This document shows positions 13,250 to 19,409 of a stretch of 44,524 nucleotides of DNA, piece after piece. The DNA is taken from assembly GCA_016875405.1 (NCBI GenBank), contig VGRJ01000027.1:1-44524 (forward strand), in the 5' to 3' direction. The notes below the pieces were generated by a model that saw only the letters and a program-made list of their open reading frames with translations, did no database searches and was not told the DNA's origin. The position numbers and the translations under genes were made by a program. Position 1 is the stretch's first letter. Every line of letters starts with the position of its first letter. Source of the stretch: Deltaproteobacteria bacterium (GTDB lineage Bacteria; Myxococcota_A; Polyangia; Polyangiales; Polyangiaceae).

Positions 13250-14062
13250 ATGGCTGCGGCTCCCGTGACGACCACCCCTCCCGACGAGCCCGCTCGCGGC
13301 CTCGTGCAGGGCGCGGGCTCCGCCGCGCTCGCCGTGAGCCAAGCCATCGGCGCGATGGGTCTGCTCGCGAGCCGCATTTTCTCGCGGATCGCGAAGCTCG
13401 AGCTCGACCGCGACGAGCTCGTCCGAAACCTCTACCGGATGGGCTTCCAGTCGATGCCGATCGTGATCGTGACGGCCCTCTTCACCGGCGGGATCATGGT
13501 GGTTCAGGCGGCGCCGCTCGTGAATCGCATCGGCGCGCACGGCCTCCTCGGCTGGGCGGCGGGCTTCGGCACGCTCCGCGAAATCGCGCCCCTACTCACG
13601 GCGCTCATGATCAACGGCCGCGTCGGAGCGAACAACACGGCCGAGCTCGGGACGATGGTGGTGACCGAGCAGATCGACGCGATGCGCGTGCTCGCGATCG
13701 ATCCGGTGTCGTTCCTCGTCGCGCCGCGCTTCATCGCGATCACCGCGACGCTCTTCATTTCGACGGTGTTCGCGGACGTCCTCGCGTTGCTCGGCGCGTC
13801 GATGATGGGTGACGCACTCCTCGGCGTCGCCCCGGTGACCTTTTACAACGGGCTCACGAGCGGGCTCCTCGGCGTCGGGGACATCGCGAGTGGGCTCGTC
13901 AAATCCGTCCTCTTTGGGGTGCTCATCGGCCTGTCGAGCTGCCAGTTCGGACTCGGCGTGACCGGCGGTGCGCCCGGCGTCGGACGCGCCGTGAACGCCA
14001 CCGTTGTCGCGTCGGCCGCGGGCGTCTTTGTGATCGACTACTTCGTATCTTTCACGCTGTGA
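13250..14062 (+). CDS. mlaE: MlaE/YrbE-family lipid ABC transporter permease 1
   Basis: The 270-residue product carries the MlaE permease signature throughout: FTGGIMVVQAAPLVNRIGA, then GREIAPLLTALM-type and NGRVGANNTAELGTMVVTEQIDA, and FLVAPRFIA. Five to six hydrophobic helices are visible. MlaE forms the membrane core that passes phospholipid between an MCE-domain protein (MlaD) and the ATPase MlaF. The ATG at 13250 is preceded by GGGAGA at good spacing. The last codons overlap the next permease gene by four bases (GTGA), so the two should be co-translated. MlaD and MlaF homologues lie 3-5 kb downstream rather than in this operon. Confidence 0.93.
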   Translation: MAAAPVTTTPPDEPARGLVQGAGSAALAVSQAIGAMGLLASRIFSRIAKLELDRDELVRNLYRMGFQSMPIVIVTALFTGGIMVVQAAPLVNRIGAHGLLGWAAGFGTLREIAPLLTALMINGRVGANNTAELGTMVVTEQIDAMRVLAIDPVSFLVAPRFIAITATLFISTVFADVLALLGASMMGDALLGVAPVTFYNGLTSGLLGVGDIASGLVKSVLFGVLIGLSSCQFGLGVTGGAPGVGRAVNATVVASAAGVFVIDYFVSFTL

Positions 14063-14904
14063 GCAAGCCGCGCATGACACCCTCGCTGCCGACGAGCTCC
14101 GCCGAATCGCTCATGCCCGCGCGGGAGCGTGGCTTTGTCGAGGACCTCGGGGCGGTCGGGCTCGAGCTCCTCCGCACCGGCCGTGAGCTCTACTCGCTGT
14201 TCCTTCGCACCATCTACTACTCGCTGCGCGGACGCCGTGAGCCTGGCGCGCTCGGGCAAGCGATGTTCGAGATCGGCAACCGCTCGCTGTTCTTCCTCAC
14301 CGTGGTGATGGGGTTCATCGGGATGATCATGGTCTATCAGGGCGGCGCACAGACGAAGCGCGTGCTCCCCGATCTGACGCTGCTCGGCGCGACCTACCTC
14401 GAGCTCCTGATCCGAGATCTCGCGGCGTCGATCGGAGCGCTCATGCTGGCGACTCGGGTCGGGGCCGGGATCGCGGCCGAGATCGGATCGATGGTGGTGA
14501 CCGAGCAGGTCGATGCGCTCCGCATGTGCGCGGCCGATCCCGTCGACTACCTCGTGAAGCCGCGCTTCATCGCGTGCATCGTCATGATGACGGTGCTCGG
14601 GATCTGGAGCGCGACCGTCGCGTACCTCACCGGCATGCTGACCGCGTACGTCTGGTTCGACGTGAGCCCGCTCACCTTCTCGAACCTCGCGCTCGTCGAC
14701 GTGGTCGATCTCGGGACTGGGCTCGCTAAGTGCATCGCCTATGGGGCCGCGATCCCGGTCGTCTCGGGGCACGCCGGGCTCGCGACCTTCGGCGGCTCCG
14801 AGGGGGTCGGCTCGGCGACGACGCGCGCCGTGGTCAACAGCTCGCTCGCCGTGATCATGCTGAATTTGCTGATCTCGGCGACGAGCTTCGTGCTGTTCGG
14901 TTGA
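14059..14904 (+). CDS. mlaE: MlaE/YrbE-family lipid ABC transporter permease 2
   Basis: The 281-residue product starts at the GTG of the GTGA overlap with permease 1. It keeps the family core: MGFIGMIMVYQGG, then ATRVGAGIAAEIGSMVVTEQVDALRM and YLVKPRFIA. It has a longer N-terminal segment (about 60 residues) before the first helix. It is clearly a diverged paralogue of its upstream partner, not a recent duplication. A cotranslated pair suggests a heterodimeric permease, as in mycobacterial YrbE A/B of mce operons, instead of the MlaE homodimer of enterobacteria. That heterodimer is inference. Confidence 0.92.
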   Translation: MSKPRMTPSLPTSSAESLMPARERGFVEDLGAVGLELLRTGRELYSLFLRTIYYSLRGRREPGALGQAMFEIGNRSLFFLTVVMGFIGMIMVYQGGAQTKRVLPDLTLLGATYLELLIRDLAASIGALMLATRVGAGIAAEIGSMVVTEQVDALRMCAADPVDYLVKPRFIACIVMMTVLGIWSATVAYLTGMLTAYVWFDVSPLTFSNLALVDVVDLGTGLAKCIAYGAAIPVVSGHAGLATFGGSEGVGSATTRAVVNSSLAVIMLNLLISATSFVLFG

Positions 14905-18668: not shown

Positions 18669-19409
18669 GTGATTTCGTTCCGCAACCTCAAGAAGTCCTT
18701 CGGGCCGAAGCCCATCCTTCGAGGGGTGTCGTTCGACGTCACCGACGGCGAGGTCTTCTTCATCATCGGGCAGAGCGGCGCCGGCAAGAGCGTGATGATC
18801 AAGCACCTCGTCGGGCTGCTCGCGCCGGACGAAGGCGAAATCTGGCTCGATGGTGAGGAGATCAGCCGCTTCGACGAGGAGCGGATGTACGGCGTCCGCA
18901 AGAAGTGCGCGATGGTGTTTCAGCACTCGACGCTGTTCGACTCGATGTCCTGCCTCGACAACGTCGCGCTACCGCTCCGCAAACACCGAGGGATGTCCCA
19001 CGCCGAAGCGCGTGACGCCGCGCGCACTCGCCTTGTCCAAGTGCACATGGAGGCGTTCGCGGAGCGCCTCCCGACCGAGCTTGGGGACGGCATGCGCAAG
19101 CGCGTCGCGATCGCCCGCGCGTTGACGCTCGAGCCGCGCTACGTGCTCTTCGACGAGCCGACGACGAGCCTCGACCCGGTAAGCGCTCGCCGGGTGGACA
19201 AGCTGATCCGGGAGCTCAGCGACACCCTTGGAGTCACCAGCATCGTCGTGAGCCATGACCTCACGAGCATCTTCACGATCGCCGATCGAATCGTGATGCT
19301 CTATCAGGGCGAGGTGCGGCTGCTCGGGACTCCCGACGAGTTCAAGGCCTCGAGCGACCCGATCATCGACCAGTTCATCCATGGGCGAGCCGAAGGCCCG
19401 ATCGAGTGA
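18669..19409 (+). CDS. mlaF: MlaF-like ABC transporter ATPase with atypical signature motif
   Basis: The 246-residue ATPase has Walker A GQSGAGKS (34-41), Q-loop Gln85, Walker B YVLFDEP (158-164), the D-loop TSLDP and switch His196 (VVSHD). The ABC signature, usually LSGGM in this family, reads LGDGM (138-142): the Ser that touches the ATP gamma-phosphate is Gly and the first Gly is Asp. It matches MlaF better than other ABC ATPases over RNLKKSFGPKPILRGVSF and DEPTTSLDPVSA. The start is a GTG. It is the likely partner of the MlaD and MlaE proteins in this window. The signature may be a lineage variant. Confidence 0.92.
   Translation: MISFRNLKKSFGPKPILRGVSFDVTDGEVFFIIGQSGAGKSVMIKHLVGLLAPDEGEIWLDGEEISRFDEERMYGVRKKCAMVFQHSTLFDSMSCLDNVALPLRKHRGMSHAEARDAARTRLVQVHMEAFAERLPTELGDGMRKRVAIARALTLEPRYVLFDEPTTSLDPVSARRVDKLIRELSDTLGVTSIVVSHDLTSIFTIADRIVMLYQGEVRLLGTPDEFKASSDPIIDQFIHGRAEGPIE

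Follow-up and report, generated by a model that had tools for sequence, protein, structure and literature searches.

An MlaF-like ATPase with a degenerate signature motif as the predicted half of an asymmetric heterodimeric ATPase in a myxococcotal MCE transporter

In heterodimeric ABC exporters with a degenerate ATP site, permease and ATPase are parts of one chain. As stated for the exporter MsRv1273c/72c, an ATP site of an ABC dimer is formed by the Walker motifs and the switch His of one subunit and by the signature motif of the other (PMC12038006). In MsRv1273c the catalytic Glu is replaced by Asp497 and the switch His by Gln528, and the resulting site was shown to be weak. The degenerate site of TM287/288, which has an Asp in Walker B and a deviating signature, is described as binding nucleotide tightly without hydrolysing it (PMC5216877). 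For two transporters with MCE-domain proteins the ATPase is described as a homodimer: MlaF in E. coli (PMC7367683), and in mycobacteria MceG, which different MCE systems are believed to share and which serves the heterodimeric permease YrbE1A/YrbE1B (PMC9882608). The substrate specificity and the direction of Mla transport are described as long controversial. A search of titles and abstract openings in the open PMC literature, outside which most subscription papers and preprints lie, returned no heterodimeric or degenerate ATPase in an Mla or MCE transporter.

We analysed a 44,524 nucleotide contig of a Deltaproteobacteria bacterium assigned to Polyangiaceae, Myxococcota (VGRJ01000027.1, the window). 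It encodes an MlaF-like ATPase, two permeases and an MCE-domain protein (Table 1), for which we coined the labels A, E1, E2 and D; B denotes a second ATPase described below. The A gene starts with GTG and codes for 246 amino acids. The top NCBIfam model, PRK11831 (MlaF), was matched with 200.6 bits, below the equivalog cut-off of 441; A is therefore a relative of MlaF rather than an E. coli-type orthologue. The best PDB sequence matches were the MlaF chains of A. baumannii and E. coli, and the AlphaFold2 model (pLDDT 89.6) was closest in fold to MlaF (6xbd_I, TMq 0.94). With regard to the C-terminal 'handshake' extension of MlaF, A could be aligned up to residue 252 of the 269-residue E. coli MlaF, with the QFxxGxxxGP stretch included, and then stops.

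Table 1. Features of the transporter genes in the window
Feature	Position	Strand	Evidence and remarks
MlaE permease E1	13250..14062	+	PF02405, E=9.6e-63; E1 group SH-aLRT 99
MlaE permease E2	14059..14904	+	PF02405, E=6e-52; 4-base overlap with E1; E2 group SH-aLRT 100
MlaD/MCE-domain protein D, 349 aa	17576..18625	-	PF02470 (residues 37-125); 43-base gap to the divergent A gene
MlaF-like ABC ATPase subunit A	18669..19409	+	degenerate signature, intact catalytic residues; ORF, PF00005, AlphaFold2 model
Walker A GQSGAGKS, intact	18768..18791	+	sequence, alignment
Degenerate signature LGDGM replacing LSGGM	19080..19094	+	codons, alignment
Intact Walker B: Asp162, catalytic Glu163	19152..19157	+	sequence, alignment
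Switch His196, intact	19254..19256	+	sequence, alignment

The signature motif sets A apart from MlaF, to which it is similar in sequence and fold. Its codons (ctt-ggg-gac-ggc-atg) read L-G-D-G-M, and in the alignment the motif falls on the LSGGM that MlaF has in E. coli and in A. baumannii, from which it differs in two residues: Ser is changed to Gly and the first Gly to Asp. In the model, the signature helix (residues 140-152) begins at the aberrant Asp140. The Q-loop Gln, the Walker B motif FDEP and the D-loop SLDP are all intact. The presence of LGDGM among otherwise intact motifs, as the original prediction had it, was thus confirmed by the codons and the alignment, and also by the orthologues described next.

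LGDG was found in all 29 A orthologues that were retrieved from other genomes, which are 72-88% identical; the next residue is Met in 28 of them and Leu in one (L050). Walker A, Gln, Glu and His are intact in each. The A gene has an open frame, and mean column identity in its alignment is 82% (18 rows). The same picture was obtained with 134 non-identical sequences of the A clade from the window's phylum, collected from additional loci in the class, in the phylum at large and in named MAGs. None of the 134 has SGG, and all retain the Walker B Asp-Glu and the switch His. The first Gly of the signature is replaced by Asp in 121 sequences, by Pro in ten, and by Ala, Glu and Ser in one each. These motif counts omit matches below 130 bits or 190 residues, sequences with stops and identical or contained sequences. 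Also omitted were L254_3439 and L263_4707, placed with B by the fast tree and, as we guess, LolD-like; four LGPGL rows lying just outside A in the fast tree were counted as A, and two of these lay inside A in the first careful tree. A is far from universal, being found in 150 of 377 phylum genomes (E <= 1e-90).

In other MlaF-like ATPases SGG was present in 60 of 62 sequences, Asp-Glu in 62 of 62 and His in all 61 that could be read, one being unreadable. Since 52 of the 62 came from a scan by a Walker A string or DEPTTSLD, the intact Walker B of these was partly selected; the signature and the His were not. Universality of LGDGM among related MlaF proteins had been raised with the original prediction as a point that would speak against it, and the answer is divided: every sampled member of the A clade has lost SGG, but only 2 of 62 among the other relatives have. 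L182 (6072-6806), from a deltaproteobacterial MAG, is a single MlaE and MlaF-like pair whose ATPase has an LSMGI signature with intact Glu and His. L157 (8327-9844), from a Myxococcales MAG, has a pair of neighbouring MlaF-like ATPase domains, the first with LSGGM and the second with CSSGQ, which seem to share an open frame; they may perhaps be another asymmetric pair.

The original prediction proposed to look elsewhere for an MlaF whose signature is canonical, and such an ATPase is encoded in the window's genome on another contig than A (G000:C126:10013-10750:-; L009/L065). This ATPase, B, has the signature LSGGQ, and its switch His is replaced by Ser. Its best PDB fold match is likewise MlaF. 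In two relatives (L040, L044) the gene directly before A codes for an MlaF-like ATPase with LSGGQ and with Ser at the place of the switch His. In the B clade SGG was present in 106 of 106 sequences, and each of the 106 had lost a catalytic residue: Glu in 39, His in 72, both in five. In the window's class the loss is mainly His to Ser, in the remaining phylum mainly Glu to Asp with the His kept. These are the two places altered in MsRv1273c (PMC12038006). Because the catalytic residue was lost in alternative ways, it is the dead site that appears to be conserved, rather than one particular mutation. The most damaged B that we saw, L284 (G066:C108), has GDP for DEP, so that the Walker B Asp is apparently lost too, plus Ser for His. 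Ordinary MlaF relatives also occur in the window's genome (L007 with LSGGM, L008 with LSGGQ).

The distribution of A and B was determined in two sets of genomes. Among the 59 nearest genomes, with that of the window included, 39 had both A (at least 300 bits) and B (at least 230 bits), three had A alone, three B alone and 14 neither. Two of the A-only genomes (G025, G042) contain a B fragment cut by the contig end, and the B-only genome G028 has no A but has E2 at a contig end; the other three genomes with A or B alone are G003, G005 and G032. E2 was present in 41 of the 42 genomes carrying A. In 289 genomes of the class (E <= 1e-90) both were found in 159, A only in 22, B only in 13 and neither in 95, counts that were transcribed by eye (Fisher p 9e-40, a value that ignores shared ancestry). 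Six of the 22 A-only genomes were examined and all contained B, which was complete or almost complete in G039, G074, G098 and G133 and fragmentary in G025 and G042. Among the 13 B-only genomes, G028 was the one examined. A and B are two distinct ATPases that are inherited together, with exceptions.

We searched twelve genomes with a B profile, nine of which (families f20 and f36) had no previously recognised B. B was found in eight of these nine; it retained SGG in each and had lost Glu, His or both. All four f20 genomes had a B with LSGGQ, in combination with DDP and SSD (two genomes), GDP and SSD, or DEP and SSD. The best f20 scores were 1e-75 to 1e-80, outside the 1e-90 limit, so that B was counted as absent there in the class count. 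In f36, B was found in four of five genomes, with LSGGM, DDP and SHD; the profile search of the fifth (G376, 84% complete) gave no B. In family f14, where B was already known and lies away from A, SSD was present in three of three genomes. Family f20 had been considered a counter-example (in L234 an A with LGPGL stands with E2 and D, without adjoining B or E1) and was rejected as such: in four of four f20 genomes examined B occurs with E1 at another locus.

The neighbouring genes suggest that A belongs to an MCE transporter. The window holds two MlaE-family permeases (two PF02405 matches) and one protein with a single MCE domain (one PF02470 match). D is longer than E. coli MlaD (183 aa); in Veillonella, MlaD is known in a bridge-like, elongated form with 419 aa (PMC10665443). 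In 105 A loci examined, eight of them shorter than 5 kb, we found E2 in 82, E1 in 74, an MlaD match (D) in 84 and a counted B in 64. The usual order in the relatives is B-E1-E2-A-(D), and B-E1-E2-A was present in 61 of the 64 A loci containing B, where order means order only, B strands not being considered. Where the sequence on the usual side of B extended for 4 kb or more (84 A loci), a counted B was present in 56, a near-duplicate B in L203 and none in 27. The four f20 B genes all adjoin an E1-like permease, and A lies between E2 and D in the three f20 A loci fetched. The linkage in such split loci hints that B may pair with E1 and A with E2.

In a tree built without the motif columns (88 rows), A (30 rows) and B (31 rows) each formed one side of a 100/100 branch. 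One B sequence, L286, had been excluded from this second tree after a long-branch warning; in the first careful tree it was long-branched and grouped with two rows that represent a different ABC type. For the divergent B genes of f20 the placement comes from the fast tree, and L286 was the only one of them in a careful tree. In a quick tree of a sample of permeases (27 of 73 E1, 27 of 80 E2 and 24 of 59 other MlaE rows) E1 and E2 were separate groups. The separate A and B and the separate E1 and E2 groups indicate that the split is old. The idea that B is a recent duplicate of A found no support, as a strongly supported branch parts B from A and from the other MlaF-like rows.

In the A and B clades the catalytic residue is lost in one subunit and the signature in the other. 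As ATP sites are composite, both defects fall in the same site of an A:B dimer and the other site is left intact, while in A:A or B:B every site would be damaged. If there was a single ancestral pair, chance alone would bring two defects into the same site in half of all cases, which tempers this argument. We consider it very probable, from the sequences, that A and B form an asymmetric heterodimeric ATPase, of which A is one half and B the separately encoded other, acting on a heterodimeric MlaE permease in an MCE/Mla lipid transporter; the physical dimer and hydrolysis at one site are inferred. The unlinked position of B in the window's genome and the 27 of 84 sufficiently flanked A loci without B speak against this reading. 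The idea of an asymmetric ATPase matching the paired permeases, put forward in the original prediction, gained support from the complementary losses in B and from the clustering of B with A and both permeases in many relatives.

Such an ATPase would drive an MCE/Mla-type lipid transporter built of E1, E2 and D. Site 1, made of Walker A, Glu163 and His196 of A and LSGGQ of B, would be canonical and would hydrolyse ATP. Site 2, made of the Walker motifs of B without His or Glu and of LGDGM of A, would be degenerate on both sides. An Asp in the signature impairs hydrolysis, as in CFTR G551D. By analogy with TM287/288, site 2 would be expected to hold ATP without hydrolysing it. The original prediction, which noted that a change in the signature normally harms ATPase function, needs one correction: A, with its catalytic residues kept, is not the impaired catalyst and is predicted to hydrolyse ATP against the intact signature of B, the site spoiled by LGDGM being the one on B's Walker motifs. 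Lipids would be moved between membranes, with substrate and direction assigned by inference. If one site held ATP permanently, lipids might perhaps pass the MCE channel in a single direction or under the control of a gate. We also think it likely, at a somewhat lower level of confidence, that Myxococcota possess an MCE lipid transporter of the MlaE type which is asymmetric throughout, with E1:B and E2:A halves and an obligate heterodimeric ATPase with a single active site, and that the asymmetry itself was selected. This last point is suggested by the dead site being kept in many families through alternative changes (Asp, Pro, Ala, Glu or Ser in the signature; His to Ser or Glu to Asp in B).

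The main alternative is that there are two separate transporters with homodimeric ATPases, one in which A2 acts on E2 and one in which B2 acts on E1, each with two crippled sites that still work or act as slow switches. It would fit the families in which the B-E1 locus is split from the E2-A-D locus, and the fact that A, B, E1 and E2 are each an old separate group. However, every site would then be degenerate in both transporters, whereas mixing the subunits yields one intact site in all sampled lineages; the usual B-E1-E2-A arrangement where B is in the locus and the near-constant presence of E2 in A-bearing genomes also argue against separate transporters, which we regard as improbable. Marginally less probable still is that A by itself forms an active homodimer of the ordinary kind, with compensating changes that make LGDGM tolerable, and that B is a paralogue with another task. 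The retention of all other motifs in the 134 A sequences would suit such an enzyme, as would the location of B on another contig in the window's genome and the 27 sufficiently flanked A loci without B; but A co-occurs with B and shares a gene cluster with it and with both permeases, the losses in B are complementary, and MlaF-like ATPases outside A and B have, with two exceptions, kept SGG.

An artefact is the least credible of these explanations. The window does come from a draft assembly of 218 contigs, in which a sequencing error, an assembly error or a decaying pseudogene could produce an aberrant motif. The occurrence of LGDG in every one of the 29 orthologues rules out all three, and disposes of the possibility, raised with the original prediction, that reads would show LSGGM; the open frame and the high column identity also argue against decay. 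The asymmetric A:B heterodimer remains the reading that we prefer.

Other Mla-type components were seen in these genomes. MlaC was considered as a part of the A/B system and found no support, PF05494 being present in 18 of 20 genomes, four of which lack A/B (G006, G037, G038, G040). The window's genome has an MlaC homologue (PF05494) at G000:C9:3310-3774, apart from the A/B system, and in G012 MlaC adjoins an ATPase with LSGGM, DEP and SHD. With MlaC apart from A/B, and beside a canonical ATPase in G012, an ordinary Mla system seems to coexist. A further MlaE permease stands beside an MlaF-like ATPase in the window's genome (G000:C103, locus L066, 5537-6250 and 6265-7122, both on the minus strand). 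This ATPase has an LSFGI signature and FDDP in Walker B; the residue that aligns with the switch His is Asn. Its type was found in 10 of the 59 genomes, that of the window included: DDP was present in all ten, LSFG in nine and LSAG in one, and none had His at the switch place, with a His one residue later in six. Judged from these motifs it may perhaps be a second, conserved, doubly degenerate ATPase.

If the heterodimer is real, it would provide a naturally occurring MCE transporter in which one site is dead. Such a transporter would reveal whether a single hydrolysis per cycle suffices, and would offer a handle on which ATPase half couples to which permease. It would also mean that the degenerate-site design of the exporters emerged a further time, in another class of ABC transporters. 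For annotation, the rule follows that a partner is required wherever a myxococcotal 'MlaF' carries LGDGM.

Compared with the known systems, the locus is closest to MlaFEDB of E. coli, A. baumannii and P. aeruginosa, which supplies the best PDB matches of A in sequence and of A and B in fold, and with which it shares an MlaE-family permease and an MCE-domain protein. The difference lies in the subunits: the MlaF of E. coli, which has LSGGM, forms a homodimer, whereas the genes described here code for two different ATPases and two different permeases. Mycobacterial Mce1 (YrbE1A/YrbE1B and MceG) resembles it in the heterodimeric permease of an MCE transporter, here predicted from E1 and E2. Mce1 combines two permeases with a single homodimeric ATPase; in our locus type there are two permease groups and two ATPase groups, and the ATPase would, as predicted, be heterodimeric and have one of its sites dead. 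With the exporters TM287/288, BmrCD and MsRv1273c/72c it would share one consensus and one degenerate site, as predicted for A:B from sequence, and it differs from them in its separate MlaE permeases and its MCE protein.
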